Assembly: GCF_004360225.1 (NCBI RefSeq)
Contig: NZ_SNUA01000001.1
Span: 186,001 to 250,000 of the forward strand
Origin: Alcanivorax sp. 24
GTDB taxonomy: Bacteria > Pseudomonadota > Gammaproteobacteria > Pseudomonadales > Alcanivoracaceae
Reading direction: 5' to 3'
DNA length: 64,000 bases
Each line of letters opens with the position of its first letter. Positions within the stretch are counted from its first letter, which is position 1. The notes below the pieces were generated by a model. That model was not told the origin of the DNA, ran no database searches, and saw only the letters and a list, made by a program, of their open reading frames with translations. A program made the translations under genes and the position numbers. Shown here one piece after another: positions 46,690 to 61,963 of the stretch.

Positions 46690-47301
46690 ATGCGTGAAGA
46701 CGCCAAAACCCCGCACCGCCATGCCGAACGCATGGCGAAAAAGCAAAAAATCATGCAGGAACGAATCGCCCGGGCACAGAACAACCAGGGTGTGTTGCTG
46801 GTGCTGACTGGCCCCGGCAAGGGCAAAAGCAGTTCCGCTTTCGGTATGGCGGCGCGCGCCCTGGGCCACGACATGAAAGTGGGTGTGGTGCAGTTTATCA
46901 AAGGGGCGTTCAAAACCGGCGAGGAGCGCTTCTTCCGTGCGCAGCCGCTGGTGGACTACCACGTCATGGGAGAGGGCTACACCTGGGACACCCAGGATCG
47001 CGAACGCGATGTGGCCGCCGCCAAAGCCGCCTGGGCCGAGGCGCGCCGCATGCTGCGTGACCCGGACTACAAGCTGGTGGTGCTGGATGAACTGAACATC
47101 GCGCTGCGTTACCAGTACCTGGATCTGGACACCGTACTGGATGACCTGCAGGACCGCCCGGAAATGCAGCACGTGGTGGTCACCGGCCGTTACGCACCTA
47201 AGCCGCTGATCGAACTGGCCGACACCGTCACCGAAATGAAAGTGGTGAAGCACGCGTTCAAGGATCTTGGCGTGAAGGCGCAGAAAGGCATAGAGCTGTG
47301 A
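46690..47301 (+). CDS. cobO: Cob(I)yrinic acid a,c-diamide adenosyltransferase
   Basis: CobO (BtuR/CobA type) adds the 5'-deoxyadenosyl group to the corrinoid cobalt. The 203-residue protein has the modified P-loop [21 protein letters not shown] near residues 38-58, then [26 protein letters not shown] and [22 protein letters not shown], all diagnostic. GCAGGGAGA upstream of ATG 46690 fixes the start. Its TGA stop overlaps the proposed GTG start of cobQ. Confidence 0.95.
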
Positions 47302-48815
47302 AGAAAGTTGATAGTGGACAGTTGAAAGTTGACAGCGAAAATCCTGGCAGTAGCTGTCAACTATCCACTGTCAACTGTCAACTGACTTTAATGGTGCAAG
47401 GCACGACTTCGGATGCCGGAAAAAGCACGGTGGTGGCGGCGTTGTGCCGCTGGCTGGCGCGGCAGGGGGTGGCGGTGGCCCCGTTCAAGCCGCAAAACAT
47501 GGCGTTGAACAGCGCGGTGACCGGGGACGGTGGCGAGATCGGGCGCTCCACCGCGTTGCAGGCGCTGGCCTGTGGTCTTGAACCGCACAGTGATATGAAC
47601 CCGGTATTGCTCAAGCCGCAGACCGATCGTGGTGCCCAGGTGATCCTGCGCGGACGGGTGCTCGGCAACATGGACGCCATCGCCTATCACGAATACAAAA
47701 CCACTGCCCGGGAAGCGGTGCTGGCGGCCTGGCATGATCTGTCCGCACGCTATCCGATCATCATCGCGGAAGGCGCCGGCAGTCCGGCGGAGATCAACCT
47801 GCGTGAGAACGACATCGCCAACATGGGTTTTGCCGAGGCGGTGGATTGCCCGGTGATTCTGGTGGCGGACATTGACCGGGGTGGTGTTTTCGCGCAGTTG
47901 GTGGGCACGCTGGAGCTGCTTTCTGAAAGCGAACGGGAACGTGTGGTCGGCTTTGTCATCAATCGTTTTCGCGGAGACCCGGCGCTGTTGCAAAGCGGCC
48001 TGGACTGGCTGGAGCAACGCACCGGCAAACCGGTACTCGGCGTGCTGCCTTATCTGCATGGCCTGTTGCTGGACGCGGAAGACGCGGTGGCCGACGCCGG
48101 TGAGCATGTCGGTGAAGCATTGAACGTGGTGGTGCCGGTCTTTCCCCGCATCAGTAACCACAATGATCTGGATCCGCTGCGCCTGCATCCCGGTATTGCC
48201 CTGTATCTGGTCGGGCCGGGGCAAACACCGCCGCCAGCCGACTGGGTGATTCTGCCGGGCAGCAAGCATACTCGCGCCGATCTTCACTGGTTGCGGGAGC
48301 AAGGCTGGGAGCCTTATTTGCAGCGTCATCTGCGTTATGGCGGGCGCATATTGGGTATCTGTGGCGGCTTCCAGATGTTGGGCAAGGCGATACATGATCC
48401 GGACGGTATTGAGGGGCGTCCCGGCAGTAGTGATGGACTGGGGCTGCTGGATATGGAAACCACCCTGGTGGCTGGCAAGCAACTGCGGCAGGTGGGGGCA
48501 CGTTTGCTGCCTGGTGGTGAAGCCGTAGCCGGTTATGAAATCCACAATGGCGTCACTGGCGGGCCGGCGCTGCAACGGCCGTTGTTCGATGTGGGTGGTC
48601 GCATGGACGGCGCGGTCAGTGACGACGGCCAGGTGATGGGCGGCTACCTGCATGGCTTGTTTGATCGGGCTGGCGTGTGCGATGCGTTATTGCGGCCACG
48701 GCAGGAGAGCACAGCGGATCATGAGCAACACCGGCAAGCGGTTCTGGATCGTCTGGCGGACAGTGTCGAACAGCATTTGAATCCGCCCTTGTTGCGCCGC
48801 TGGCTGCGGCTCTGA
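47298..48815 (+). CDS. cobQ: Cobyric acid synthase, with a repeat-encoded N-terminus
   Basis: CobQ amidates the b, d, e and g side chains of adenosylcobyrinate a,c-diamide. The family sequence begins at [21 protein letters not shown] (ATG 47391), continuing with [10 protein letters not shown], an [12 protein letters not shown] motif, [10 protein letters not shown] and the glutaminase Cys in [12 protein letters not shown]. No ribosome site precedes ATG 47391. GTG 47298 overlaps the cobO stop and has AAAGG upstream, so translation probably starts there and runs through the heptad hairpin, adding 31 residues. If ATG 47391 is used instead, the hairpin is an untranslated leader. Confidence 0.9.
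47306..47383. repeat. Heptad-built hairpin repeat at the cobO/cobQ junction
   Basis: Arm 47306-47336 and inverted arm 47353-47383 (27 of 31 positions pair) surround a 16-base loop. Each arm is four AGTTGAC-like heptads plus AGC, the same unit as at 12720-12750 and 12905-12935. The frame of the downstream cobQ gene stays open through the whole structure. Confidence 0.9.
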
Positions 48816-49005: not shown

Positions 49006-49029
49006 TCTTTCTTCTTCAAGGTATTGACC

Positions 49030-49042
49030 GGTTAGTACAAGT
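49030..49042. promoter_or_regulatory. GntR-type operator-like site before the porin gene
   Basis: GGTTAGTACAAGT: its reverse complement ACTTGTACTAAC is identical over 12 bases with the site at 60430-60441. It lies about 15-27 bases downstream of the predicted start site, overlapping an inverted CAAG-TCAT-CTTG. Confidence 0.5.
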
Positions 49043-49062: not shown

Positions 49063-50301
49063 ATGAGCAGGCTTACTGGAACGGATCCTGTGAATCGATG
49101 TGGCCCATTGGCGGCCGCCATGCTGATCGCCGCTCTGCCGGGTCTCGCCCTGGCTCAGGCCGAGTCGCTTCAGGAGGCGTTTTCCGATGGGGAAGTCAGC
49201 GGCAATCTGCGCGCCTATCACAACATCAGGGACGCACACGGCAGTGACGCCAACCATACCTTCGCGCTCGGCGGCAGCCTGCACGCGGAAACCGCGCCCT
49301 GGTCCGGTGTGTCCGCCGGCGCCACATTTTACACCTCCAACGGATTGGGGCTGCAGTACGAAGAGCGCTCCCGGCGTAACGCCAATCTGCCCGATGACGT
49401 GGACGTGCTGGGCGAAGCCTGGATGCAGTATGAGGGCGCCGGCAATCGGCTGCGGGCCGGGCGACTGAAAGTGGATACGCCTTTCTCCAATCCCTCCGAT
49501 GCGTTTCTGATTCCAATTACCTATGAAGCGCTGTCGGTGGCCAACACCGCGATCGACGGACTGGAGCTGTCCGGGCATTATTTGCGCCGGATCAAGAACC
49601 GCCCGGACGATGCATTCGAACGGATCGGCCAGTTCGCGCTGGATCGTTATGGTGTTGTCGATGACAGTGACAAAGGCGCCTGGATCGCCGGCGCCCGTTA
49701 TCAACCGGCGGAGCGCCAGTGGCAGGCCTGGGCCATGGCGCTGCCGGACCTGTTCACTCTCTATTACGTGCGGATGGATACCCCGCTGGCGGATTGGCGC
49801 GGCCTGGCCTTTGACCTTGGCGTGCAAGGACTTTACGGGGATGACGCCGGTGACGCCCTGGCGGATCGGATCAACGCTCGTGGTGGCGGGCTGCAACTGT
49901 CGTTGTCACGGAACGCCACGACTCTGGCGCTGGCCTGGAACCGCTTCTGGGAAGACGCCGATGCCTATGGCCGCGGCGCCTTGCCGATGCCGTTCAGCTA
50001 TTCCACCGGGCCACTGTTCACCAACTCGATGACGCAGACACTGGAAAACAGCGCCGCCGGCCAGGCTTACAAGATCAGCCTGAAACAGTCGTTTTCGCCG
50101 CGCTGGAGCGGGCAAGTCAGCTATGCCCGCTATCAGCGGCTTGGCGCGGTGGACACGGATGAGGCGGATCTGGACATCAGCTATGCCTTCGGTGGTGGCC
50201 TGGAAGGGCTGTCGCTGCGTCTGCGTGTCGGCGTGATCGGTTCCGACCAGGCCGATGCGCGTTTTGTCGAGGTGCGGCCGCAACTGCAATACGTGTTTTA
50301 A
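49063..50301 (+). CDS. OprD-like outer-membrane porin
   Basis: A 412-residue outer-membrane beta-barrel with a signal peptide ending around LPGLALAQA and a C-terminal Phe in the QLQYVF ending. EVSGNLRAYHNIRD, GLKVDTPFSNPSDAF-type (here GRLKVDTPFSNPSDAFLIPITYEAL), and LSWNRFWEDAD-like strands resemble the OprD family of substrate-specific porins. GAGGAGG precedes the ATG. A sigma54 promoter, an upstream activator-like site and a GntR-type operator match those of the importer operon at 60.4 kb, so it probably admits the same substrate through the outer membrane. Confidence 0.85.
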   Translation: MSRLTGTDPVNRCGPLAAAMLIAALPGLALAQAESLQEAFSDGEVSGNLRAYHNIRDAHGSDANHTFALGGSLHAETAPWSGVSAGATFYTSNGLGLQYEERSRRNANLPDDVDVLGEAWMQYEGAGNRLRAGRLKVDTPFSNPSDAFLIPITYEALSVANTAIDGLELSGHYLRRIKNRPDDAFERIGQFALDRYGVVDDSDKGAWIAGARYQPAERQWQAWAMALPDLFTLYYVRMDTPLADWRGLAFDLGVQGLYGDDAGDALADRINARGGGLQLSLSRNATTLALAWNRFWEDADAYGRGALPMPFSYSTGPLFTNSMTQTLENSAAGQAYKISLKQSFSPRWSGQVSYARYQRLGAVDTDEADLDISYAFGGGLEGLSLRLRVGVIGSDQADARFVEVRPQLQYVF

Positions 50302-50342
50302 CACCGGGGACCGTACTCGCCAGGATTGTATTTTCGCGCAAT

Positions 50343-50363
50343 ATGTAATATTGTTTGTTACAT
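50343..50363. promoter_or_regulatory. Inverted repeat over the Rrf2 start codon
   Basis: ATGTAA and TTACAT flank a 9-base AT-rich spacer, and the right arm contains the first two bases of the start codon. No ribosome site is visible, so the message may be leaderless. The position suggests self-repression. Confidence 0.45.
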
Positions 50364-50811
50364 GAAAAGAGACAGCAGATTATCAGGTGTGCTGCACGTG
50401 CTTCTGCACATGGCGGAAGTGGAAGGGCCGGTTACTTCCGAGACCCTTGCCGGGATCATGCAGACCAACCCGGTTGTGATTCGCCGTACCCTTGCCGGAC
50501 TGCGCGAGCAGGGGCTGGTGACCTCGGTAAAGGGGCACGGCGGCGGCTGGCGTCTGTGCTGCGATCTGGATGCCGTCACCCTGCATGACATCTATGTGGC
50601 GCTGGGCGAACCCGTGGTGTTCGCCATGGGAAACCGTACTGAGTCGCCTGGCTGCCTGGTGGAAAAAGCAGTCAACGCTCATATGAACGATGCTCTTCAA
50701 CAGGCCGAAGCGGTGCTGATGGCCCGGTTGCGTGATGTGACCCTGGCGGATCTGAGCCGGGATTTTCATCGTGGCCTGCAACAGCGGGACCACGCTCACT
50801 GCCCCTCCTGA
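50362..50811 (+). CDS. Rrf2 family transcriptional regulator
   Basis: A 149-residue Rrf2/BadM-type regulator. The N-terminal winged helix reads RLSGVLHVLLHMAEVEGPVTSETLAGIMQTNPVVIRRTLAGLREQGLVTSVKGHGGGW, with the family's GxGGGW wing. Only one Cys (SPGCLVEKAV) lies in the sensor region, so it is unlikely to bind an Fe-S cluster like IscR or NsrR and resembles YwnA-type members. The thioredoxin-reductase-like gene follows 27 bases later; the pair probably responds to redox or thiol stress. Confidence 0.9.
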   Translation: MKRDSRLSGVLHVLLHMAEVEGPVTSETLAGIMQTNPVVIRRTLAGLREQGLVTSVKGHGGGWRLCCDLDAVTLHDIYVALGEPVVFAMGNRTESPGCLVEKAVNAHMNDALQQAEAVLMARLRDVTLADLSRDFHRGLQQRDHAHCPS

Positions 50812-50838
50812 CCGCGCTATTTTTTGCCGGAGGCTATT

Positions 50839-51735
50839 ATGTTTGACGTCATTATTGTCGGCGGCGGTTACGCTGGTATGTCCGCGGCGCTGCCGCTGGC
50901 GCGCGCCCGTCGCAAGGTACTGGTGATCGACAGCGGACTGCGCCGTAACCGCTTCGCTGACGCCGCCCATGGTGTTCTGGCCCAGGATGGACGCCCGCCG
51001 GGGGAGATCGCCGCTGAAGGGAAGCGGCAATTGCTGCTTTACCCGGATCTCACCTGGCGTGATGGCGAAGCTGTATCCACGAGTCGGCTTGATGACGGGT
51101 TTGCAGTGGGCACCGCCGACGGCGACCAGTTCCGAGGTCGCCTCCTGATCCTTGCCACCGGTGTTTCCGATACCTTGCCCGATGTGCCGGGTGTGAAGGA
51201 ACGTTGGGGGCGTTCGGTGTTTCACTGCCCATACTGCCACGGTTACGAACTGAACCGGGGCGTGCTCGGGGTGCTTGCCAGCGGGCCTATGTCGCTGCAT
51301 CAGGCGCAATTGATTCCGGAGTGGGGACCCACCACGCTTTTCACCAATGGCGTGTTGACCTTGGATCAGGAACAGCAACAGGATCTGGCCCGGCGTGGTG
51401 TCACGGTGGAGACGGAAGCCGTGGTGGCGGTGTCCGGCGACCGGGCCACGGTGGCGTTGAAGGACGGCAGAGAGAAGGAACTGGTGGGTTTGTTTGTGGC
51501 CACCGAGATAGTGCCCGGTCCGTTGGCGGAACAATTGGGATGCAAACTGGAATCCACTCCCATGGGCACAATCATCGCCACCGATGAGGTCAAGGCCACC
51601 TCGGTGCCCGGTGTGTTCGCGTGTGGCGACACGGCCCGGGCCGCCGGCAACGTGACGCTGGCCATGGCCGATGGCACCATGGCGGCCATGGGCGCGCACC
51701 GGGCTTTGTTGTTCGGTTTGCCGGAGAGCGGCTGA
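50839..51735 (+). CDS. Thioredoxin reductase-like NAD(P)/FAD-dependent oxidoreductase
   Basis: A 298-residue class II pyridine nucleotide-disulfide oxidoreductase. FAD motif VIIVGGGYAGMSAAL at residues 4-18; redox-active CPYC at 130-133 in HCPYCHGYE; GVFACGDTARAAGNVTLAMADG near the C-terminus for FAD. The sequence is closer to the short TrxB-like proteins encoded beside Rrf2 regulators than to housekeeping TrxB. The NADPH motif is weak (VLASGPMSLHQA), so the electron donor is uncertain. CGGAGG precedes ATG 50839. It converges on the ferredoxin-NADP reductase gene. Confidence 0.88.
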   Translation: MFDVIIVGGGYAGMSAALPLARARRKVLVIDSGLRRNRFADAAHGVLAQDGRPPGEIAAEGKRQLLLYPDLTWRDGEAVSTSRLDDGFAVGTADGDQFRGRLLILATGVSDTLPDVPGVKERWGRSVFHCPYCHGYELNRGVLGVLASGPMSLHQAQLIPEWGPTTLFTNGVLTLDQEQQQDLARRGVTVETEAVVAVSGDRATVALKDGREKELVGLFVATEIVPGPLAEQLGCKLESTPMGTIIATDEVKATSVPGVFACGDTARAAGNVTLAMADGTMAAMGAHRALLFGLPESG

Positions 51736-51777: not shown

Positions 51778-52554
51778 TTATTGCTCCACGAAGGCACGTT
51801 CGATGACATAGTCGCCGGGCTGCCCTTGATGTGGAGACGCCTGAAAGCCACGGGCGTCCAGCATTCTGGTCAGTTCCTCCAGCATCGCCGGGCTGCCGCA
51901 CAGCATGACCCGGTCGGTTTCCGGGTTCAGTGCCGGCAGGCCGAGGTCCTCGGTGAGTTTGCCGCTTTCGATCAGGGTGGTGATCCGCCCCCGGTTGCGG
52001 AACGGCTCCCGGGTCACGGTGGGATAATAAATCAGTTTTTCGCGAATGCACTCGCCAAGGAATTCGTGTGCGGGTAGCGCCTGATGAATGTAATCGTGAT
52101 AGGCCAGTTCGCTCACATAACGGACGCCGTGGACCAGGATGATGTTGTCGAAACGGTCATAAATCTCGGGATCCTTGATGATGCTCATGAAGGGCGCCAG
52201 GCCGGTTCCGGTGCCGAGCAGGAACAGGTTCCTGCCCGGATTCAGGTCGTGTACCACCAGGGTGCCGACCGGTTTGCGGCTGACGATCAGCGCGTCTCCC
52301 TCTTTCAAATGCTGAAGCCGGGACGTCAACGGGCCGTCTGGTACCTTGATGCTGAGAAATTCCAGATGTTCTTCATGGTTGGCGCTGGCGATGCTGTAGG
52401 CGCGCATCAGTGGTTTGCCGTCCAGCTCCAGACCAATCATGACGAAGTGCCCGTTCTCGAAGCGCAGGGCCTGATCACGGGTGGTGCGAAAGCTGAACAG
52501 AGTGTCGTTCCAATGGTGCACACTCAGTACGTTTTCTTTACCAATGGCAGCCAT
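51778..52554 (-). CDS. fpr: Ferredoxin-NADP reductase
   Basis: A 258-residue FAD-dependent ferredoxin/flavodoxin-NADP reductase. FAD binding is in LMRAYSIASANHEEHLEF, the NADP pyrophosphate loop in LLGTGTGLAPFMSI, and VMLCGSPAML and the C-terminal VIERAFVEQ are as in bacterial subclass I Fpr proteins. GGAGG lies upstream of the ATG. It is the last gene of the minus-strand series that includes two ferredoxins and can supply or drain their electrons. The 99-base gap to DUF971 leaves room for an own promoter. Confidence 0.92.
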   Translation of the reverse strand: MAAIGKENVLSVHHWNDTLFSFRTTRDQALRFENGHFVMIGLELDGKPLMRAYSIASANHEEHLEFLSIKVPDGPLTSRLQHLKEGDALIVSRKPVGTLVVHDLNPGRNLFLLGTGTGLAPFMSIIKDPEIYDRFDNIILVHGVRYVSELAYHDYIHQALPAHEFLGECIREKLIYYPTVTREPFRNRGRITTLIESGKLTEDLGLPALNPETDRVMLCGSPAMLEELTRMLDARGFQASPHQGQPGDYVIERAFVEQ

Positions 52555-52653
52555 GTCTATCCTCCAATAACGAACAAAGTTGAATGCGGTCCCCTTCGGG
52601 GAGGTTGCAAGCGTGCACGCAGTGACGCGGGCGCCGGCGTCCGCTGGTGGGTG

Positions 52654-52989
52654 TCACGGTGGCGCCTCCGCGTTGTTGTCGAGGCGGCAAAGGTTGTCGA
52701 GACGGTAAAGATAGCTCCAGGGAAAACGGCCGCGATCGTGGCCGTCGGAGAAGGTCAATTGCAGCGCACCGAGGTCGGCCATGGCCACGTCTCGGATGCT
52801 AACGTCGTCGTCGACCAGATCAGTGCCGCACCGCCGTGCCGCTTCGCAGTGCGCGCAGCGGCAGGCACGGCGCAGAGCGGTGCTGGCGAGGCGGGAGATT
52901 TCGCCATTTTCCCACAGCAGTTGCAGAGCGCCACCGCCGTCGAGCAGACGTATTTCCTCCGGGGCATTGATCCCGCTGTGATGTGTCAT
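52654..52989 (-). CDS. DUF971 (GBBH-like N-terminal domain) protein
   Basis: A 111-residue single-domain DUF971 protein. It shows the family order IRLLDGGGALQLLWENGEISRLAS, a cysteine cluster CRCAHCEAARRCG likely to bind zinc or Fe-S, VSIRDVAMADLGALQLTFSDGHDRGRFPWSYLYRL. In plants and many bacteria this domain is linked with Mrp/ApbC Fe-S carriers (for example at the C-terminus of HCF101), and an Mrp gene lies 8 kb away in this locus. ATG 52989 follows CCGGAGACGACA. A longer frame upstream is not needed. Confidence 0.88.
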   Translation of the reverse strand: MTHHSGINAPEEIRLLDGGGALQLLWENGEISRLASTALRRACRCAHCEAARRCGTDLVDDDVSIRDVAMADLGALQLTFSDGHDRGRFPWSYLYRLDNLCRLDNNAEAPP

Positions 52990-53048
52990 TGTCGTCTCCG
53001 GATTGAGTGAGTGCCTGGGATAACCTGTCATGACAAGTTGTCGTGCAC

Positions 53049-53372
53049 TCAGCGTTGCAGGTACCGCAGCTTGTCGCTCTTGCCTTCCCAGGCTTCGGCG
53101 TCAGGCAGGGGCTCCGACGCTTCCGCCAGTACCGGCCAGACCTGCGCCAGCTCCGCGTTCAGTGCCACGAACATTTCCTGGCCTTCGGGCAGTTCCTTGT
53201 CCGCGTGGATGGCGCCGGCTGGACACTCCGGCACACACAGAGCGCAATCAATGCAGACCTCCGGGTCGATCACCAGAAAGTTTTCCCCCTCGTGGAAGCA
53301 GTCCACCGGGCACACTTCCACGCAGTCGGTGTATTTGCAGCGTATGCAGTTCTCGGTCACCACGAATGTCAT
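53049..53372 (-). CDS. fdxA: 7Fe-type ferredoxin (FdxA-like)
   Basis: A 107-residue ferredoxin with cysteines at 9, 12, 17, 21 and 40, 43, 46, 50 ([18 protein letters not shown] and [12 protein letters not shown]), the pattern of [3Fe-4S][4Fe-4S] ferredoxins of the Azotobacter FdI/FdxA type. The C-terminal half ([25 protein letters not shown]) is the usual FdxA extension. It lies between the HEAT-repeat and DUF971 genes. It may pass electrons between the Fpr reductase and the AprB-like ferredoxin; that link is inferred from context. Confidence 0.93.
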
Positions 53373-53402
53373 CGTCGTCTCCTTGCCGGCCGAGGCCGCC
53401 GG

Positions 53403-54359
53403 TCAGGCGGCACTCAACTTCGATTGCGCCCAGCGGGCCAGTTTGCGAACGTCCGGGTCCGGATCATCCAGAGCGGTTTGAATGTAAGGCCGGCATTGTT
53501 CGTGAGCGATGGCGCCGAGCGCGCCGATGGCGGCTTTGCGCAAATTGCTCATGGCATCGCGGCTGCACTCGCCCAGTGCCGGAATGCCTTCCACCCGGCC
53601 GAGTTTGCCGATGGCGTCGGCGGCCTTTTCCCGCACCTGCCAGGTGCTGTCCCGGGTCGCCTCGATCAGCAGCGGCAGGCTGTCTTGGTGATTGAGCTTG
53701 GCGATGCTGTTCATCGCCTCGGCCCGCACCTGCCAGTGCGGATCACTTACCACTTGCCGGAGCGCTTCCGCCACCGAGTCCGGCTCGGCGTAGACCAACG
53801 CACCGACGGCGGCGCGGCGTACCTCGGCATCGTCATCGTCGCGGGCGCGTTGGATCAGCGCCGGCAGGTTGCGTTCCTCCTTGAGCCAGCCGAGCAGCCC
53901 GACGGCTTCACGGCGGATCGTGGCATCGCCGGCTTCCAGGCGCGCCAGCGCCGGTTCACGGGCCGCCGGTTCGCGCAGGGGCTTCAGCGCCCGCAGAATG
54001 CCCGCCACCACGAACGGGTCGCGGCTTTCTTCCAGGGCGGCCAGTAGCGGTTTGGCCGCGGCCGGATCCTTGAGATCAGAGAGCGCATGAGCAGCGGCGT
54101 TGCGCACCACCTCGTCGCTGTCATTGAGCGCGGCGATCAGTGCGTCGGCCATATCCTCGGATTCAAATTCATCGACCACCTTGGCGGCCTCCTGACGCAC
54201 CTGGGGGTCGGGGTCCCGGAGTGCCTGGATCAGCAGCGTCACCGCCTCCGGTTCCGGGCAATCGACCAGGTCCAGCACCGCCACGCGGCGCAGGCCGGGA
54301 TCCGGCGAGGCCAGGCGCTCGGCCAACTCCCGCAGTTCGGGATCGTGAAACACGTTCAT
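53403..54359 (-). CDS. HEAT-repeat protein
   Basis: A 318-residue protein made almost entirely of HEAT / PBS-lyase-type repeats of about 31 residues, for example LRDPDPQVRQEAAKVVDEF, LNDSDEVVRNAAAHALSDL, RDDDDAEVRRAAVGALVYA and LDDPDPDVRKLARWAQSKL. About nine units can be counted. Such solenoids mediate protein binding or cofactor attachment. Its position between the AprB-like ferredoxin and FdxA suggests a scaffold or maturation factor for the redox complex. The start at 54359 fits GAGG upstream; a GTG two codons earlier is too close to it. Confidence 0.9.
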   Translation of the reverse strand: MNVFHDPELRELAERLASPDPGLRRVAVLDLVDCPEPEAVTLLIQALRDPDPQVRQEAAKVVDEFESEDMADALIAALNDSDEVVRNAAAHALSDLKDPAAAKPLLAALEESRDPFVVAGILRALKPLREPAAREPALARLEAGDATIRREAVGLLGWLKEERNLPALIQRARDDDDAEVRRAAVGALVYAEPDSVAEALRQVVSDPHWQVRAEAMNSIAKLNHQDSLPLLIEATRDSTWQVREKAADAIGKLGRVEGIPALGECSRDAMSNLRKAAIGALGAIAHEQCRPYIQTALDDPDPDVRKLARWAQSKLSAA

Positions 54360-54366
54360 GGGCACC

Positions 54367-54600
54367 TCAGCGCAGCAAGTAGGGAATGTTCACGGTGACC
54401 GCATCGGTCGGGCAGTCCGCTTCGCAGGGCATGCAGTACCAACACTCGTCGTACTTCATGTGGGCCTTGCCGGTGCTCTCATCGATCCAGAGCACATCCA
54501 GGGGGCAGACGTCGATGCACACGGTGCAGCCTTTATCGGCGATACATTTATCCGCGTCGACGGTGACGGGCACGGCGCTGTGATGATTGGCGATAGGCAT
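54367..54600 (-). CDS. AprB-like 4Fe-4S dicluster ferredoxin
   Basis: A 77-residue ferredoxin with two CxxC-type clusters (Cys 19, 25, 28, 32 and 53, 56, 59, 63). The first has the longer CIADKGCTVCIDVCP spacing and the second DECWYCMPCEADCP, closely resembling the N-terminal part of adenylylsulfate reductase beta subunit (AprB), but without its C-terminal tail. It lies 19 bases downstream of the flavoprotein gene and 7 bases before the HEAT gene, as the expected small subunit of the flavoenzyme. Confidence 0.92.
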   Translation of the reverse strand: MPIANHHSAVPVTVDADKCIADKGCTVCIDVCPLDVLWIDESTGKAHMKYDECWYCMPCEADCPTDAVTVNIPYLLR

Positions 54601-54619
54601 GAGAATCTCCTTGTCGGAA

Positions 54620-56353
54620 TCAGGCGTTGGCGGCTTTTTTTACACGCAGCTGGTTGTAGGCATCCTTTTCTTCGCCGAGTGAAACGATGTACGGAGCAAT
54701 CGGGCGGGTGCCGCTGGCCATCCCGCCGGACTCGTCCTTGTACAGGCGGCTGTGACAGAACCACTGCTGCTCGTCGGTCTCGGGGAAGTCCACGCGATAG
54801 TGGTACAGGCCCCAGCGCGACTCGGTGCGGTAAAGCGAGGCGCGGGCGGCCATCTCGGCGCAATCGACGATGGAATGCACCTCCATGGCGCGCATCAGTT
54901 CGTGGGCGTCACCGGCCTTGAGCAGCGGCAGGTCATCGCGGACCGAGAGAATCCGTTCCAGGCCGATCTCCATGCGGCGGGTGACCTTTGGCGGTTGCAG
55001 GTAGTCGTTGACCAGACGCCGGACTTTGTACTCCATCTGTTCCGGCGGGATACCGTCGGCCCGTTGCAGTGGCGCGCGCAGACGCACCAGTTCTTCCTCG
55101 ATCAGATTTTTGTCCAGTTCAAATTGGCCGCGCTGTTGCGCGAAGTCAGCGGCGCTTTCGCCGCAGATCTGGCCATATACGAACGCGCCGAGCATGTAGT
55201 TATGGGGCACCGAGGCCATATCGCCGGCGGCGTACAACCCCGGCACGGTGGTGGCACCGGTCTCATCCACCCAGACGCCGGAGGCGGAGTGGCCGCTGCA
55301 GAAGCCGATCTCGGAAATGTGCATTTCCACCATGCGTTTGCGGTAGTCGACGTGGCGGCCGTCATGGAAGCGGCCACGGCTGGGCCGCTCATTGGTGTGC
55401 AGAATCGTCTCGATCTCCTGAATGGTTTCCTCGGCGAGGTGATCCAGCTTCAGGAACACCGGACCCTTGCCGGATTCCAGTTCCTTGAAAAACTCCAGCA
55501 TCATCTGCCCGGACCAGTAGTCGCACTCTATGAACCGTTCGCCGAAAGCATTGGAGGTGAACCCGCCGAGTGGACCGGTAACGTAGGCGCAGGCCGGGCC
55601 GTTGTAATCCTTCAACAAGGGGTTGACCTGATAGCACTCGAGATTGGCCAGGTCGGCGCCGGCGTGATAGGCCATGGCGTGGCCGTCGCCGGAGTTGGCC
55701 GGGTTTTCATAGGTGCCGAACAGGTAGCCGGAATGCGGCAGGCCAATGCGACCCGCGGCGCCGGTGGCCATCACCACCGCCTTGGCGCGGATGATGATCG
55801 GCTCGGCGGTGCGGGTGTTGATACCGATCATGCCGGAAATATTGCCCTTGGTGTCCTTGAGAAGACGGGTGGCCTGATAGCGGTTTTCCACCTTGATGCG
55901 ATGACGGCGCAGGCGCCGGTAGAGAATTTTCTTGACGTTATGGCCTTCCGGCATGGGCAGAACATAGGTGCCGAGGTGATGCACCTTTTTCATGTCGTAG
56001 TCGCCGGTTTCGTCCTTCTGGAAATGCACGCCCCAGGAATCCAGTTTCTCGATCATCGGGTAGGAGCGCTGGGCATAGGCCATCAGCGCTGGCTGGTGGA
56101 CGATGCCGTCGTTGGCGATGGTGATTTCCCTGACGTACTGCTCCGGGGTGGCGTGGCCGGGGACAATGGCGTTGTTCAACCCGTCCATGCCCATGGAAAT
56201 GGCACCGGAGCGTTTGACGTTGGCTTTCTCCAGCAAGGTCACGTCGAGATCCGGGTGACGTTCCTTGACGGTCACCGCGGCCATTGGACCGGCGGTGCCG
56301 CCGCCGATCACCAGCACATCGGTATCGATGATGGCTACGTCGTCGAAGTTCAT
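54620..56353 (-). CDS. AprA-like flavoprotein of the fumarate reductase/succinate dehydrogenase superfamily
   Basis: A 577-residue FAD protein. The dinucleotide motif TDVLVIGGGTAGPMAAVTVKE is at residues 11-31, AVVMATGAAGRIGLPHSGYLFGTYENPANSGDGHAMAYHAGADL lies mid-protein, and VPGLYAAGDMASVPHNYMLGAFVYGQICGE near 385. The C-terminal helical domain follows the AprA/L-aspartate oxidase pattern. With the adjacent AprB-like ferredoxin it looks like a small heterodimeric oxidoreductase related to APS reductase, but no sat or qmo genes occur nearby, so the substrate is open. It starts 8 bases after gntR and is likely expressed with it. Confidence 0.88.
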   Translation of the reverse strand: MNFDDVAIIDTDVLVIGGGTAGPMAAVTVKERHPDLDVTLLEKANVKRSGAISMGMDGLNNAIVPGHATPEQYVREITIANDGIVHQPALMAYAQRSYPMIEKLDSWGVHFQKDETGDYDMKKVHHLGTYVLPMPEGHNVKKILYRRLRRHRIKVENRYQATRLLKDTKGNISGMIGINTRTAEPIIIRAKAVVMATGAAGRIGLPHSGYLFGTYENPANSGDGHAMAYHAGADLANLECYQVNPLLKDYNGPACAYVTGPLGGFTSNAFGERFIECDYWSGQMMLEFFKELESGKGPVFLKLDHLAEETIQEIETILHTNERPSRGRFHDGRHVDYRKRMVEMHISEIGFCSGHSASGVWVDETGATTVPGLYAAGDMASVPHNYMLGAFVYGQICGESAADFAQQRGQFELDKNLIEEELVRLRAPLQRADGIPPEQMEYKVRRLVNDYLQPPKVTRRMEIGLERILSVRDDLPLLKAGDAHELMRAMEVHSIVDCAEMAARASLYRTESRWGLYHYRVDFPETDEQQWFCHSRLYKDESGGMASGTRPIAPYIVSLGEEKDAYNQLRVKKAANA

Positions 56354-56361
56354 GGTTCCTC

Positions 56362-57108
56362 CTATTTCCGACCCACGCGGAAGTGATATTTGAAAGAGTC
56401 GCCGCGGAAGCTCAGATACTCGAAGTCGATCGGGCGTCCACGACGGTCATGGGTAAGGCGTTCCACCCGCAGCACCGGCTCGCCGGGTTGCAGGTTCAGA
56501 TGGGCGCGGGTGCCCTGATCGGAAAGCGCCGCTTCGATGCGAATGCTGGCCTCACCCAGGGGAATGGCGAACAGGTTCTCCAACATCGGAAAAATGTCAC
56601 CGCTGAGCTCCATGCCGAACATGCGCCGGCCGATATCCAGCGGGAAATAGCTGTGTTCCAGGGACAGCGCCTCACGGTTGAGGAAACGGACCCGGGTGAT
56701 TTCCACCACGTCCTCGCCGCTGGCGAGGCGCAGCGCGGCGGCCACTGCTTTGGGAGCCTTCAACTGCTGGATGCTGAGCAAACGGGCGGAGGCTTCATAG
56801 CCTTGCGCGGTCATGGCTTCGCCAAAACCCTGCAAGTGCTCCACGCTCTGCACCGCCTTGGGTTTGCTGACGAAGGTCCCCTTACCCTGGGCGCTGAACA
56901 CCAGCCCTTCGTTATGCAGGTCGCGCAACGCCTGCCGGATAGTGATACGGCTGACGCCGAAGGCGCTCATCAATTCGCTTTCCGAAGGCAATTTCTCGTG
57001 GGGGCGATAGTCGCCTTCGAGAATGCGCCGCCGGAGCTGGTCCTTGATCTGCAGGTACAGCGGTTGTGGTGACCGGTTCGATAGCGGCCGGGTCAGGGTT
57101 TTGCTCAC
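56362..57108 (-). CDS. GntR family (HutC-type) transcriptional regulator
   Basis: A 248-residue regulator with an N-terminal GntR winged helix (YLQIKDQLRRRILEGDYRPHEKLPSESELMSAFGVSRITIRQALRDLHNEGLVFSAQGKGTFVSKP) and a C-terminal UTRA ligand domain (VVEITRVRFLNREALSLEHSYFPLDIGRRMFG). This places it in the HutC subfamily. The start is GTG 57108 with AGAGGA upstream. An operator-like CCTGT-CATA-ACAAG overlaps its leader, implying autoregulation. Similar sites lie before the importer and porin genes. Confidence 0.92.
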   Translation of the reverse strand: MSKTLTRPLSNRSPQPLYLQIKDQLRRRILEGDYRPHEKLPSESELMSAFGVSRITIRQALRDLHNEGLVFSAQGKGTFVSKPKAVQSVEHLQGFGEAMTAQGYEASARLLSIQQLKAPKAVAAALRLASGEDVVEITRVRFLNREALSLEHSYFPLDIGRRMFGMELSGDIFPMLENLFAIPLGEASIRIEAALSDQGTRAHLNLQPGEPVLRVERLTHDRRGRPIDFEYLSFRGDSFKYHFRVGRK

Positions 57109-57119
57109 GGTACTGTCCT

Positions 57120-57133
57120 CTTGTTATGACAGG
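57120..57133. promoter_or_regulatory. GntR-type operator-like site before gntR
   Basis: CTTGTTATGACAGG on the plus strand; as CCTGT-CATA-ACAAG on the gntR strand it differs by one arm position from CTTGT-N4-ACAAG at 60431-60444. It lies 11 bases upstream of the GTG start, next to the ribosome site. Confidence 0.45.
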
Positions 57134-57175
57134 TCATGGCATTTACAGGCATGAAAGCGAACGGCATGAAGCATC

Positions 57176-58114
57176 TCAGCCGGCCTGTCCGTTCTGTTGC
57201 TCGAACGCGCGCAGGGTTTCACGGCGAATCAAATCCAGGCATTCGCGTTTCAGGGCCATGAAGCCGGGCTGGGTCAGCAGGTCCTGGCTGCGCGGGCGGG
57301 GCAGATCCACGGAGATGTCGGCGATGATGCGGCCGGGGCTGGCGCTCATGATCAGAATGCGATCGGACAAAAACACCGCTTCGTCGATATCGTGGGTGAC
57401 GAACAAAACGGTGTTGCCGAATTCGCTCCAGATATCCAGCAGGCTTTCCTGCATCATGGTGCGGGTCTGGGCGTCGAGAGCGCCGAACGGCTCGTCCATC
57501 AGCAGCACGCTGGGGTAGTTGGCGAGCGCGCGGGCAATCCCCACACGTTGCTGCATGCCGCCGGACAAGGTGTCAGGAAAGGCATTGGCATGGGCGGACA
57601 AGCCGACCAGGCCAAGAAAGGTGCGTGCCAGACTCAGCGCTTCGTTGCGGCCGAGCCCCGACATCAAGGGACCGAACGCCACGTTGTCGCGCACTGTTTT
57701 CCAGGGGAACAGGGAATGTTGCTGGAACACCATGCCGCGATCCGGGCCCGGTGCCTTGACCGGATTACCGTCCACCAGCAGTTCGCCCCGGGTGGGGCTG
57801 ACGAATCCGGCGACCGTATTCAGCAATGTGGATTTGCCGCAGCCGGACGGGCCGAGCAGGCAGACGAATTCGCCGGGGCGGATGTCCACCTGGGCGCGGT
57901 GTACCGCGGTAACCCAGTCGCCACTGCGCTCAAATTCCACCGAGACATCACGAATCTCGATATGGCCACGTTCACCGCCGGGGGCTCTGGAGCTCCGTCC
58001 TGGCGGTTGCGCCAGCCTCCGGGTCATGTCGATGGCGGAGGTCATGGGGTTCTCCTTGGCTCTGCTCTGGTCCCGGATGGTGCTTTCCGGAGTCGATTTG
58101 GTGGCCGGTTTCAT
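57176..58114 (-). CDS. NitT/TauT-type ABC transporter ATP-binding protein
   Basis: A 312-residue ABC ATPase of the SsuB/TauB/NrtD group. Walker A LLGPSGCGKSTLL, Q-loop VFQQHSLFPWKTV, signature LSGGMQQRVGIARAL, Walker B LLMDEPFGALDAQTR and H-loop VTHDIDEAVFL are complete. An unusual 50-residue hydrophilic N-terminal extension precedes the domain. ATG 58114 overlaps the permease stop (ATGA) and follows AGGAGAAAG; the internal ATG 40 in the longer frame is another possibility. It is the third importer gene; gntR starts 67 bases downstream. Confidence 0.93.
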   Translation of the reverse strand: MKPATKSTPESTIRDQSRAKENPMTSAIDMTRRLAQPPGRSSRAPGGERGHIEIRDVSVEFERSGDWVTAVHRAQVDIRPGEFVCLLGPSGCGKSTLLNTVAGFVSPTRGELLVDGNPVKAPGPDRGMVFQQHSLFPWKTVRDNVAFGPLMSGLGRNEALSLARTFLGLVGLSAHANAFPDTLSGGMQQRVGIARALANYPSVLLMDEPFGALDAQTRTMMQESLLDIWSEFGNTVLFVTHDIDEAVFLSDRILIMSASPGRIIADISVDLPRPRSQDLLTQPGFMALKRECLDLIRRETLRAFEQQNGQAG

Positions 58115-58998
58115 CGGTCTTTCTCCTGTACTTGCCAGCGCAACAGTGGACGGCACAACCACTTGATCAACAGGGTGCAGAGCGTGCCGAGGCCACCGAT
58201 CATCAACATGCCGATGATGATCTGCGGGTACTGGATCAGGGTGTAGGCGGACCAGGTGAAGTAACCGATGCCGTACTGGCCGCTGATGATTTCGCCGGCC
58301 AGCAGCGAGAACCAGGCGACCCCCATGCCAATAGCGAGGCCGGCAACGATGCTGGGCAGTGCGCCGGGCAATACCACATGCCGAAGGATGGCGGCGTTGC
58401 TGGCGCCAAGACTGCGCGCCGCCCGCACCAGCACTTTGGGTGTCTGTTCAACGCCGTGCACGGTGTTGATGACGATCGGAAACAGGGCACCGAGAAAGGT
58501 GATGAAGATGATGCTGGACTCCTCGCTGGGCATCATCAGGATGGCCAGCGGAATCCAGGCCACCGCCGGTATCGGTCTGAGCAGTTCGATGTAGGGCGTG
58601 ATGATGTCTTCGGCGAGACGGGAGCGGCCCATCAGAATACCGAGCCCGACGCCGAGCACCACGGCCACCGCATAGGCGACGGTGATGCGTCGCAGACTGT
58701 GCAGGATGTGCAGGTAAAAATCGCTGTTGGACAGCGCTTCCGTCAATGCCTGGCCCACCACCAATGGGCCGGGCACGTTCTCGAAGTTGATGAACAGATT
58801 GAAGCCGCTGCTGGATGCCCAGTGCCATACCAGTAGCGCGGCCAGAAGGGCCAGGCCGCGTACCAGATAACGGCTGAGGGTTTCCGGCAGGCGTAGCGGC
58901 GAGCGGCGTGCCGTGGCGGTGTCGGCGGCTGGGGTATCGACCTGATCGATCACCGGGCTGCCGGCCTCGCCACCGATTTCACTATTGTTCAGGCTCAT
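58111..58998 (-). CDS. NitT/TauT-type ABC transporter permease
   Basis: A 295-residue BPD-type permease with six or more transmembrane helices after a hydrophilic N-terminus of about 35 residues. The EAA loop is in LVRAARSLGASNAAILRHVVLPGALPSIVAGLAIGMGVAW, as in SsuC/TauC. SLLAGEIISGQYGIGYFTW is also typical of the family. GGGAGGAG lies before the ATG. It sits between the binding-protein and ATPase genes, with a 24-base gap and a 4-base overlap. Confidence 0.93.
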   Translation of the reverse strand: MSLNNSEIGGEAGSPVIDQVDTPAADTATARRSPLRLPETLSRYLVRGLALLAALLVWHWASSSGFNLFINFENVPGPLVVGQALTEALSNSDFYLHILHSLRRITVAYAVAVVLGVGLGILMGRSRLAEDIITPYIELLRPIPAVAWIPLAILMMPSEESSIIFITFLGALFPIVINTVHGVEQTPKVLVRAARSLGASNAAILRHVVLPGALPSIVAGLAIGMGVAWFSLLAGEIISGQYGIGYFTWSAYTLIQYPQIIIGMLMIGGLGTLCTLLIKWLCRPLLRWQVQEKDR

Positions 58999-59022
58999 AA
59001 TGCGCTCCTCCCTGACCCGCCA

Positions 59023-60405
59023 TCACCGTTCGGCGACCGCGTTGTCTTTGCGGCTTTGCAGAATTTGCCGGTAGCTGAAAACCTCGCCGTCGGCGGCGAA
59101 AGCCTCCGCCTCCGGGCGGCGCATGAACGCGGCCAACTGGTCGCCGTTACGGGCGTAGAAGGCGCTTTTCCCGAACAGCTTCAGACCACTGTTTTTGTCG
59201 TAGACATAAGAGGCGTTGATACCACTGCCGTTCTGTTCCGCTTCGCGTTCGGCGGCCAGCATGGCATCAATGGAGTCATAGCCTTTGACGCCGTCTTCGG
59301 CGTACCAGATTTCCGCCGGCTGCAAGGCCGGGTTATCCGGAATCGGGGTGACCATGGCGGCGACCGCCTTATCGTAGTCGAGGCCGCTGGCGGCGTAGGC
59401 GTTACGCAGATAGCTGTCGTCCACCCAGGCGTTGAAATTCAGGTCCGGAATCTGCTTTTCTTTTTGCAGCAGTTCATGATCGTACTTCATGGCCGCTATC
59501 CAGGCGGGTTTGACGCTGGCGTCCATGGTGGTGATGCCGCCATTGCTGAAGTACAGATAGAGCACTTCTTTTTCCACACCGGTCCACTCGGCGACCTGTT
59601 CGGCGGCACGTACCGGGTCGTCCCGAATCCATTGCTGTGCTTCGAGGGTGGCCTGCAGAACCGCCTGCACCACCTCGGGGTAGTCCCGAGCGTAGGATTC
59701 ACGCACCACGATGCCGTGGAAGGTGGGAACGCCGGCCTGGCGGCCGTCGTGGATTTTCCGGCCGGTACCGCGGAATTCCATGATCTCGGACCAGGGACAG
59801 AAATCGGCGTGGGCGTCGATTTTGCCGGCGGCGATATTGGCGGCGCCAACTGGTGGTGACTGATTGACAATAGTGACCTTGTCGATCAGCCCTTCGTCTC
59901 GCAGTGCCTTGAGCGTCATACCCCAGGCGGCGCTGCCCACTGGGGTGGAAATGGCTTTGCCGGAAAGATCGGAGAGGGACTGGACCGGGGAGTCCACCGG
60001 CACCACGATGCCATTACCGGTGCCCTCCTTGTTGTAACCGGTGATGGCGATGAAACGGGTTTCGGCGCGGCCGCCTTCCTGGAATTTGGCGCCATTGACG
60101 ATCAGCGGGTAATCGCCCATGACACCGAAGTCCAGCTTTCCCGCCAGCATCTGGTTGGTGATCGGCGGGCCAGAATCGTAGTCCTTGAAGACAATGTCGT
60201 AGTCCGCGTCTTGATACTTACCGCTCTTGGGTAAGTGCTTTTCGATCAGATTCAGTTTTTCCAGAACAACGCCGCCCGACACGGTGTTGGTCACCATGCT
60301 CTGGTGGCCAATGCCAATGCGAATGGTTTCCGCCAGCAGCGGTGTCGAAGCAAGCCCGATAAAAACGCTGAAACAGGCCGCGACGCCGTATCGTTTGTGA
60401 TTCAT
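59023..60405 (-). CDS. NitT/TauT-type ABC substrate-binding protein with NosL-like C-terminal extension
   Basis: A 460-residue periplasmic protein. Signal peptide to about residue 25 (STPLLA). Residues 26-350 form a SsuA/NrtA-type binding fold (TIRIGIGHQSMVTN, DYPLIVNGAKFQ, GKAISTPVGSAAWGMTLKAL, AANIAAGKIDAHADFCPW). Residues about 364-447 resemble NosL: AEIWYAEDGVKGYDSIDAML, YVYDKNSG, SAFYAR and EAEAFAADGEVFSY, but the usual Cys/Met copper ligands of NosL are missing. The family is normally about 320 residues long. ATG 60405 with GAGGAAA upstream is chosen over ATG 60420. It is first gene of the importer operon, with a sigma54 promoter and GntR site upstream. Confidence 0.85.
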   Translation of the reverse strand: MNHKRYGVAACFSVFIGLASTPLLAETIRIGIGHQSMVTNTVSGGVVLEKLNLIEKHLPKSGKYQDADYDIVFKDYDSGPPITNQMLAGKLDFGVMGDYPLIVNGAKFQEGGRAETRFIAITGYNKEGTGNGIVVPVDSPVQSLSDLSGKAISTPVGSAAWGMTLKALRDEGLIDKVTIVNQSPPVGAANIAAGKIDAHADFCPWSEIMEFRGTGRKIHDGRQAGVPTFHGIVVRESYARDYPEVVQAVLQATLEAQQWIRDDPVRAAEQVAEWTGVEKEVLYLYFSNGGITTMDASVKPAWIAAMKYDHELLQKEKQIPDLNFNAWVDDSYLRNAYAASGLDYDKAVAAMVTPIPDNPALQPAEIWYAEDGVKGYDSIDAMLAAEREAEQNGSGINASYVYDKNSGLKLFGKSAFYARNGDQLAAFMRRPEAEAFAADGEVFSYRQILQSRKDNAVAER

Positions 60406-60430
60406 GTCCGGTTTCCTCATTGAGAGTTCA

Positions 60431-60444
60431 CTTGTACTAACAAG
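60431..60444. promoter_or_regulatory. GntR-type operator upstream of the importer operon
   Basis: CTTGTACTAACAAG is a perfect CTTGT-N4-ACAAG inverted repeat, located about +12 to +25 from the predicted start site, in the leader before the binding-protein gene. HutC-type regulators recognise sites of this general shape. Confidence 0.6.
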
Positions 60445-60465
60445 ACATCACCACTGCTTATAAAA

Positions 60466-60587: not shown

Positions 60588-60871
60588 GGTGCACAGTGAT
60601 GACGCCAGTTTTCGGGACAAGGCGAGGCGTAACGGTACGACAACTAGAACAAGTTGCTGGCCGCGGCGTGATTCCCGTCGGAGATGTCGGGCCGCCCGCG
60701 GACGGGTAGGCGGTATCGTCGAGGTGGACGATGCGAAACAGGGTATGAAAGAGCGAAGGAACAGATCAAAGAATGTTTTTAAATATGGATATCCGTTTTT
60801 TCTGTTCACGGCACACTTCGCGGCATGGAAATTGCTGCCTTAAAAGGTATGACCGTTCAGGAGCGCCTCCC

Positions 60872-61963
60872 ATGACAACTCTGGATACCACGCACTTACG
60901 CCATCTTCTGCACCATTGGAAAGAACCAATGCAGGGCCAGGATCTAATCAACAGCAAAGCGCTCAGGAACATATCGGTGGACGGTGGCGTCGCGACTTTG
61001 AAAGTGTCCCTGGGGTTCCCGGTGGACCGCTATAAAGAAGAAAGCGCGGCGGGCTTGATCGACTATCTGGGTGCTCATGCGAATGCGATGCGGATTGTCG
61101 TTGATATGGAATGGCAGGTGCGGCCACATCGTGTCCAGGGCGGCATGGAGCCGTTGCCGGAGGTGCGCAATATCATTGCCGTGGCTTCGGGTAAGGGCGG
61201 CGTCGGGAAATCCACCACTACCGCCAATCTGGCGCTGGCCTTGCAGGCGGAAGGCGCGCGGGTCGGCATTCTCGACGCGGACATTTACGGTCCCAGCCAA
61301 CCGCGCATGATGGGCGTCGATGAGCGGCCGCAAAGTGATGATGGCAAACGAATGACACCGCTGATCGGTCACGGTGTGCAGATCATGTCGGCGGGTTTCA
61401 TGGTGGAAGAGGATTCGCCGGTGATCTGGCGCGGCTCCATGGTGACCCGGGCACTGACGCAGTTGCTCAAGAATACTCGCTGGCGGGATCTCGATTATCT
61501 GCTGGTGGATCTGCCGCCAGGCACTGGCGACGTGCAACTGACACTGGCCCAGCAGATTCCGGTGGCTGGCGCGGTGGTGGTGACCACGCCCCAGGACATT
61601 GCCCTGCTGGATGCGCGCAAGGCGTTACGCATGTTCGAGAAGGTGGATATTCCGGTGCTCGGCGTGATCGAGAACATGAGCACTCATGTGTGTAGCCACT
61701 GTGGGTATCAGGAACCGATCTTCGGCAGCGGCGGTGGTGGTCGCATGGCGGAGGATTACCAGGTGCCGCTGCTGGGCCAGCTGCCGCTGGACATCGGTAT
61801 CCGCACCCAGGCCGATGCCGGTCTGCCGTCGATACTGGCTGATCCGGACGGCGCCGTGGCACGGCAATATCGGAATGTGGCCCTGGCCCTGGCCGGCCGG
61901 CTGGCCTGCCGGCCACTGGACCACAAAGCCCGCTTCCCGCGCATTGTGGTGGAGAACCGCTGA
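60872..61963 (+). CDS. Mrp/ApbC family Fe-S cluster carrier ATPase
   Basis: A 363-residue P-loop ATPase that carries Fe-S clusters to target proteins. An N-terminal MIP18/DUF59-like domain (residues about 5-85) is followed by the deviant Walker A GKGGVGKST (107-115), switch motifs LDADIYGPSQPRMMG and DLPPGTGDVQLTLAQ, and the cluster-binding C274-x2-C277 (CSHC). ATG 60872 follows AGGAG; an upstream in-frame extension is AT-rich and unconvincing. It is divergent from the importer operon that precedes four Fe-S or Fe-S-linked genes, so a dedicated maturation role is plausible but it may be the general Mrp. Confidence 0.93.
   Translation: MTTLDTTHLRHLLHHWKEPMQGQDLINSKALRNISVDGGVATLKVSLGFPVDRYKEESAAGLIDYLGAHANAMRIVVDMEWQVRPHRVQGGMEPLPEVRNIIAVASGKGGVGKSTTTANLALALQAEGARVGILDADIYGPSQPRMMGVDERPQSDDGKRMTPLIGHGVQIMSAGFMVEEDSPVIWRGSMVTRALTQLLKNTRWRDLDYLLVDLPPGTGDVQLTLAQQIPVAGAVVVTTPQDIALLDARKALRMFEKVDIPVLGVIENMSTHVCSHCGYQEPIFGSGGGGRMAEDYQVPLLGQLPLDIGIRTQADAGLPSILADPDGAVARQYRNVALALAGRLACRPLDHKARFPRIVVENR

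Follow-up and report, generated by a model that had tools for sequence, protein, structure and literature searches.

The ten-gene cluster in Alcanivorax sp. 24

We analysed a stretch of 64,000 nucleotides from Alcanivorax sp. 24 (contig NZ_SNUA01000001.1, positions 186,001 to 250,000; called the window below, with coordinates counted from its first letter), in which ten open reading frames (ORFs) encode an ATP-binding cassette (ABC) importer, a GntR regulator and a series of redox proteins centred on a flavoprotein related to AprA, the large subunit of adenosine 5'-phosphosulfate (APS) reductase. In our assessment the system is real and widespread, with importer and flavoenzyme under common control as judged from predicted operators. 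The ten ORFs all lie on the minus strand, from 60420 down to 51778, with intergenic distances of 1–99 bases and a single overlap, between permease and ATPase. The initial annotation, made from the letters alone, had described such a tightly spaced run on one strand and named the gene families in it; both hold, the families being confirmed by profile matches. The source genome comprises 4.76 Mb in 99 contigs, and the best named relative among the matches listed is Alloalcanivorax mobilis, with 92% identity for the AprA-like protein.

In the direction of transcription, the run starts with a substrate-binding protein of 465 aa (59023..60420), which matches the NMT1 family and has an SsuA/TauA-like core and a C-terminal NosL-like domain, followed by a NitT/TauT-type permease (58111..58998; matches to the BPD_transp_1 domain and to curated families) and an ABC ATPase identified by profile matches (57176..58162), whose listed start overlaps the permease and whose real start probably lies later. 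A GntR/UTRA regulator (56362..57108) is supported by its domain match, by the operator sites described below and by DNA binding of its Acinetobacter orthologue (PMC13104710). The AprA-like FAD protein (54620..56353; 577 aa, FAD_binding_2 and Succ_DH_flav_C domains) belongs to family NF006131, with 1028 bits against a cut-off of 587; four proteins of the genome match this family, and it is the only one above the cut-off. Then come an AprB-like ferredoxin with two 4Fe-4S motifs (54367..54600), a HEAT-repeat protein matching the C-terminal part of NF010374 (53403..54365), the ferredoxin FdxA (53049..53372; 165.2 bits against a cut-off of 135), a DUF971 protein recognised by its domain (PF06155; GBBH-like N; 52654..53031), and an Fpr-like ferredoxin-NADP reductase (51778..52554), which scores 156 bits with PRK10926, under its cut-off of 390. 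Because an operator overlaps the listed start of the DUF971 gene, its true start is probably Met15 at 52989. The system extends beyond the ten genes to a divergent partner on the plus strand, the iron-sulfur carrier ApbC/Mrp (60773..61963; 402 bits against a cut-off of 348).

The initial annotation had also stated that sat, qmo, ssuD and tauD are missing. A profile search of the whole source genome gave no match for SsuD, and neither sat nor qmo is found among the profile matches of the ten genes, which is as far as the search for these two went. For TauD the statement is true of the ten-gene run and not of the genome, in which two TauD-family genes lie elsewhere. The view that the cluster serves neither sulfate respiration nor a standard sulfonatase is supported.

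Conservation, gene order and co-occurrence

A scan of species genomes returned at least 595 relatives of the flavoprotein, and the best 80 loci were kept; they therefore represent its closest relatives and do not sample the family evenly. At most 9.5 kb from the flavoprotein, the AprB-like ferredoxin was found in all 80 loci and the HEAT protein in 79, followed by GntR (70), ATPase (67), binding protein and permease (66 each), DUF971 (63), FdxA (35), Fpr (21) and ApbC (9). The 60 loci that are not cut by a contig end give a similar picture (AprB 60, HEAT 60, GntR 53, binding protein 50, DUF971 49). Gene order is variable: the importer heads the cluster in Gammaproteobacteria; in many loci of Burkholderiales type it stands between AprB and HEAT, and elsewhere it comes after HEAT. 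Alphaproteobacteria have a Crp/Fnr regulator instead of GntR, both in the loci and in annotated plasmid regions. Fusions occur in Actinobacteria, where the AprA-like and HEAT parts form a single protein of 894 aa in Tsukamurella and share one open frame in Nonomuraea. From the neighbourhood counts, the variable order and these fusions, the core of the system is the AprA-like protein, the AprB-like ferredoxin and the HEAT protein.

Co-occurrence was examined across the phylum in 398 genomes, one of them the window's own. The flavoprotein is present in 21 of them (about 5%), and a long binding protein is encoded in 20 of these 21 carriers and in none of the 377 others (Fisher p = 8e-33, a value inflated by the relatedness of the genomes). 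Since the neighbourhood is kept in 80 loci and the co-occurrence is nearly perfect, the ten genes are a conserved system and not a chance run. The proposal of one importer-plus-redox system thus gains support, and the converse pattern, in which flavoprotein and HEAT genes occur mostly without the importer, was not seen. The exceptions are 14 loci without a binding protein within 9.5 kb. One of them (L040) has it just past this distance; the genomes of the remaining 13 encode one elsewhere in three cases and none in ten. No common substitute transporter was found in the Burkholderia-type loci that lack the importer.

Of the 21 carrier genomes, 17 encode SsuD, compared with 50 of the 377 others, so carriers tend to be organosulfur users. 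The idea that the system replaces SsuD is unsupported, since the two co-occur.

The gene set is also found on plasmids. In a plasmid collection, 55 records match the flavoprotein, one of which is a plain APS reductase; the matching records include rhizobial, methanotroph, cyanobacterial and Acinetobacter ones. ApbC/Mrp lies downstream of HEAT in the cyanobacterial plasmid clusters. A cluster on Nostoc edaphicum plasmid pNe_5 (L106) carries genes for two HAD hydrolases, a methyltransferase, a GNAT protein and a VOC protein between flavoprotein and ferredoxin, with a further GNAT protein and an amidase downstream; GNAT and amidase genes also occur in Methylocystis (L112), a possible hint to the substrate. 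Some loci show other peculiarities. For example, the binding-protein stretch of a Halomonas locus (L030, 5546-6880) holds one stop codon as matched, and two loci (L039, 7213-8992; L041, 7919-9158) encode an SCO1-like protein, recognised by eye, and a cytochrome c between the importer ATPase and GntR. L039 also has a PCuAC-like protein (by eye), and its cytochrome c is a weak PdsA/SoxA match.

A predicted GntR operator and its regulon

The window and 71 of the 80 loci were searched for palindromes in their upstream regions, and one, ACYTGTYATRACARGT (consensus drawn by eye), recurs in many of them. In the window, an exact match lies 5' of DUF971-Fpr (53023..53038), a match with one mismatch 5' of GntR (57119..57134), and a probable operator with three mismatches 5' of the binding-protein gene (60430..60445), the last supported by its position and by a similar variant at this place in relatives. 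With up to three mismatches allowed, the window contains six matches where 0.67 would be expected, a number that no shuffle out of 100 attained; the remaining ones (24860, 49027 and 60027) have three mismatches each, and 60027 falls within the binding-protein gene. In the whole genome, up to two mismatches give three places, two of them in the cluster, while the reversed control pattern gives six. Genome-wide, the only sites that stand out are therefore the two low-mismatch ones (53023 and 57119).

Predicted operators stand in front of the regulator gene, of DUF971-Fpr and, as a weaker match, of the importer genes, which makes the ten-gene run a GntR regulon of three units and not one unbroken operon. 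Gammaproteobacterial relatives, too, have sites ahead of these three units. A weight matrix applied to the 80 loci gave 129 sites at a score of at least 9, compared with 20 in shuffled sequence, training and test sets overlapping in this comparison. The nearest downstream gene of these sites is mostly GntR (71), followed by the binding protein (19), DUF971 (14), AprA and permease (4 each) and others (17). No site is found in 12 of the 80; these comprise 8 of the 10 loci in which GntR was not matched, but also four with GntR. When 30 of the genomes that hold the 80 loci were searched, 13 contained exact matches, whose positions were checked in part, and none contained the reversed pattern.

The predicted operator also marks other genes. 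Sites lie 5' of a sulfite-exporter-type TauE/SafE gene in three loci, for example at 116 and 106 bases from the ORF in L054. In the Methyloversatilis genome (L153), a second, paralogous cluster has its own operators before GntR and before the TauE/SafE gene, with a YeiH gene upstream of the latter on the same strand, and L084 shows the same YeiH-TauE/SafE order and operators. A FAD reductase of about 1190 aa is found in 11 of the 80 loci, and six of these (L043, L047, L048, L053, L061 and L064) have a site in front of the gene or right at its start. In Alloalcanivorax mobilis (L025), an operator-like site with a score of 11.8 (2035-2050) stands before a second, NMT1-like binding protein and a permease, both recognised by eye.

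In the window, a weak operator-like site with three mismatches (49027-49042) lies 20 bases 5' of an OprD-type porin gene on the plus strand (49063..50301; Pfam match), which perhaps belongs to the system as outer-membrane entry. A similar site is found before the porin of L041; the porin gene of L025 is preceded by none that reaches score 9. The porin gene is followed on the plus strand (50326-51735) by genes for an Rrf2 regulator and a Pyr_redox_2 flavoprotein, thioredoxin-reductase-like by eye. A likely cobyric acid synthase gene (47298-48815, by eye) is unrelated to the system.

An APS-reductase scaffold with a different active site

The nearest solved proteins of the AprA-like flavoprotein by sequence are the 3'-phosphoadenosine 5'-phosphosulfate (PAPS) reductase of Methanothermococcus (8a8o, 1e-64) and the APS reductases. 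An AlphaFold2 model superimposes on 8a8o with a template modelling score of 0.80, its active-site stretches having predicted local distance difference test values below 50. The curated cut-offs of this group are all missed: 153 bits for TIGR02061 aprA (cut-off 642), 288 for NF005331 (557) and, for the ferredoxin, 32 for TIGR02060 aprB (136). The annotation as succinate dehydrogenase or fumarate reductase (SDH/FRD) is ruled out, since TIGR01812 gives 153 bits against a cut-off of 567 and NPL stands in place of HPT, which we take to be the substrate motif of those enzymes, no SDH being part of the alignment.

Residues were compared in an alignment that includes 8a8o, a part of 1jnr and the enzyme encoded in a sulfate-assimilation operon of Ilyobacter, using Archaeoglobus fulgidus numbering for APS reductase. 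Asn74 is kept, while Arg265 is replaced by Leu246, Trp234 by Tyr215, Tyr95 by Glu76 and Gly274 by Cys255, and the family has an extra loop, VHxxGxYVLPMP. These five residues, the Asn and the four replacements, are invariant in 40 members from Proteobacteria, Cyanobacteria and Actinobacteria. Arg265 and Trp234 presumably have functional roles in APS reductase, and both are retained in 8a8o and in the Ilyobacter enzyme. As these two residues are swapped and the family has invariant residues and a loop of its own, the AprA-like protein is very likely an APS-reductase scaffold acting on another substrate.

That the cluster encodes a ferredoxin-linked APS or PAPS reductase of ordinary sulfate assimilation is suggested by its closest solved relatives, with which it shares the fold, the AprB partner and Asn74. 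It is nevertheless highly improbable: Leu246 and Tyr215 rule out this identity, the Ilyobacter sulfate-assimilation enzyme having retained Arg and Trp there, and APS would need no importer. The link to an importer and the HEAT partner are further differences from AprBA and the PAPS reductase. In the AprB-like ferredoxin, eight cysteines and Trp54 are conserved at 97% or more among 85 sequences; for the tryptophan we assume the role described for that of AprB (PMC10322725).

The importer and the published efflux operon

The core of the binding protein is closest to SsuA/TauA by sequence, and its four solved relatives are all SsuA or TauA, one of them deposited as "nitrate transport protein" and titled SsuA. 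By fold, the regulatory domain of CmpC ties with SsuA, and NrtA comes next. The protein shares the core fold with SsuABC/TauABC systems, as do permease and ATPase their families; it differs in the additional C-terminal NosL-like domain, the scores stay under the family cut-offs (SsuA_fam 119 bits against 163.5, with the SsuA, TauA, SsuB, TauB, SsuC and TauC NCBIfam cut-offs all missed), and the ten genes include no monooxygenase or dioxygenase. The NosL profile of Pfam matches this C-terminus in 15 of 30 aligned members (E 0.11 for the window's), and no conserved Cys/Met motif of a copper site is visible by eye in the window's domain. A sulfonate-like ligand is predicted. The ATPase scores best with SaoA of the Sec-assisted organometallic (SAO) system (249 bits against a cut-off of 360); this weak similarity is the only link to SAO, the scores being under the Sao cut-offs and no SaoL appearing among the matches listed, for a comparison in which selenoproteins were not sought.

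In the open-licence PubMed Central literature, covered mostly by titles and abstract openings, no substrate was found named for this system among the matches listed. The sulfonate operon Bphy_7232-37 of Paraburkholderia phymatum, as presented in PMC8305402, was considered as a studied orthologue and rejected, since this species is not among the 55 plasmid-collection matches. An orthologous operon of Acinetobacter baumannii (AUO97_RS16340-RS16365) has been studied as a GntR-"ABC efflux" operon with GntR as activator, and the available text of this article reports peroxide, macrophage, minimum inhibitory concentration, motility and insect phenotypes and gives no substrate (PMC13104710; 2026). 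The term "undescribed" in the initial annotation thus overstates the case for the genes and remains justified for their function. The order printed there is GntR, flavoprotein ("dehydrogenase subunit"), ferredoxin, binding protein, permease and ATPase, with a divergent chrA adjacent. Compared with our Acinetobacter locus (L116), four of the six printed gaps are equal (241, 28, 19 and 34 bp) and two differ (74 and 16 bp, compared with 20 and 1), so that the two are equated by synteny and not by sequence. Purified GntR bound the intergenic region in a reported electrophoretic mobility shift assay (PMC13104710), and this region corresponds to the 241-bp chrA-GntR gap of L116, which holds an operator site found here.

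An oxidative-stress or ABC efflux system, as published for the Acinetobacter operon with the phenotypes above, is an improbable account of the cluster. The ABC genes form a binding-protein-dependent importer set (binding protein, permease and ATPase) and not an exporter architecture, which in ABC efflux pumps lacks a periplasmic solute-binding protein. The HEAT and DUF971 genes, next in L116, lie outside the six-gene unit as described, and the peroxide sensitivity could stem from a lost sulfur supply or damaged Fe-S proteins. The operator and the residue comparison suggest that the published "efflux pump" is an importer accompanied by an unstudied enzyme.

Electron supply, direction and product

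The initial annotation had seen a complete electron path next to the transporter. This is true of the window and not a general feature: besides the limited presence of FdxA near the flavoprotein, 47 of the 80 loci show no Fpr, large FAD reductase or Rnf in the part of the locus covered, Rnf having been seen in L040 and not searched for elsewhere. In L040 (11868-16979), Rnf subunits lie directly 3' of DUF971, followed by a TauE/SafE-like gene (by eye); RnfA and RnfC were confirmed by profile match. Loci without a dedicated input would draw electrons from the general supply of the cell. Because Fpr, Rnf and the FAD reductase, where present, suit ferredoxin reduction, the context favours reduction over oxidation, of which the initial annotation had left both open.

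In the opposite direction, the flavoprotein would oxidise an imported sulfur compound and pass electrons via AprB, FdxA and Fpr to NADP, a reading to which the reversibility of AprBA enzymes and the names of several hosts, which are those of sulfur oxidisers, lend something. We regard it as quite unlikely, as Rnf subunits, Fpr, a GltD/FNR-like reductase and FdxA are suited to low-potential electron supply, with the restriction that the 47 loci mentioned lack such inputs.

As to the product, a YeiH relative occurs in 18 of the 80 loci (one of the 18 checked by Pfam), and three cyanobacterial plasmid clusters continue via Mrp into YeiH-type and TauE/SafE genes, which the Nostoc cluster does not. 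Organosulfur genes are found at distances of up to 12 kb in 6 of the 16 plasmid regions whose annotation was examined, and include, as annotated, LLM flavin oxidoreductases, an NtaA/DmoA monooxygenase, 3-mercaptopropionate dioxygenase, sulfonate binding proteins and O-acetylhomoserine aminocarboxypropyltransferase. The operator-preceded TauE/SafE genes, the YeiH neighbours and the cyanobacterial clusters with both favour sulfite as the product, and the context as a whole favours sulfur over nitrogen, between which the initial annotation had not chosen.

The same importer and enzyme might have another target, such as a different oxyanion or a nitrogen compound (nitro, N-oxide or nitrate-like) reduced for nitrogen or detoxification. 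This is unlikely in our estimate. In its favour, the importer family also transports nitrate and bicarbonate, in line with the fold comparison of the binding protein; hosts of Thiobacillus, Acidithiobacillus and cyanobacterium type suit a need for nitrogen better than one for sulfur; and the active site is unlike those of the APS and PAPS reductases compared. The TauE/SafE genes behind predicted operators, the YeiH partners and the organosulfur neighbours indicate sulfite instead, and the solved relatives of the binding protein point the same way.

Proposed function and significance

The best explanation, which we hold tentatively and at a little short of an even chance, is GntR-controlled import of a sulfonate-like, sulfo-bearing compound and reductive removal of the sulfo group as sulfite. 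The substrate would enter through the porin and pass from the SsuA-like binding protein to permease and ATPase. NADPH would supply electrons, which Fpr and then FdxA would pass on to the AprB-like ferredoxin with its two 4Fe-4S clusters; from there, travelling past Trp54, they would reach the FAD of the AprA-like protein. The HEAT protein would dock or align the partners, and ApbC and DUF971 would assist in Fe-S loading. The reduced FAD would attack the sulfur via N5, as in APS reductase, with a leaving group other than AMP, for which the family pocket, with its invariant Cys255 and Tyr215 and the VHxxGxYVLPMP loop, may provide the place. The sulfite could then be assimilated or, as TauE/SafE and YeiH in relatives suggest, exported.

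Several observations weigh against this explanation, namely the many loci without electron-input genes, the absence of both TauE/SafE and YeiH from the window, and the exporter function of YeiH, which is itself putative. The gene set, its conservation, the operator sites, the folds and the residue changes are read from the sequence; from them we infer the direction of electrons, the sulfite product, the reaction chemistry and the roles of HEAT, ApbC and DUF971. On this basis, reductive sulfite release from an imported sulfo compound is the most likely function.

It is possible, with less confidence than we place in the function itself, that the system stands for a route of desulfonation or desulfation that needs no oxygen and is driven by ferredoxin, in bacteria living aerobically, in cyanobacteria and in Actinobacteria. 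It would use an APS-reductase fold whose active site is new, together with a HEAT subunit and export of sulfite, and would sometimes be borne on plasmids. To our knowledge, aerobes desulfonate with oxygen (SsuD, TauD) or by means of dedicated lyases. The gene set is widespread, in about one in twenty of the sampled genomes of the phylum and in plasmid records, yet almost unstudied, and the GntR operator and the three-unit regulon predicted from it are new in this analysis. Together with the residue map, the operator offers direct tests of function. If the proposal is true, an enzyme that descends from APS reductase and works reductively with electrons from ferredoxin would bring new chemistry to a common setting.

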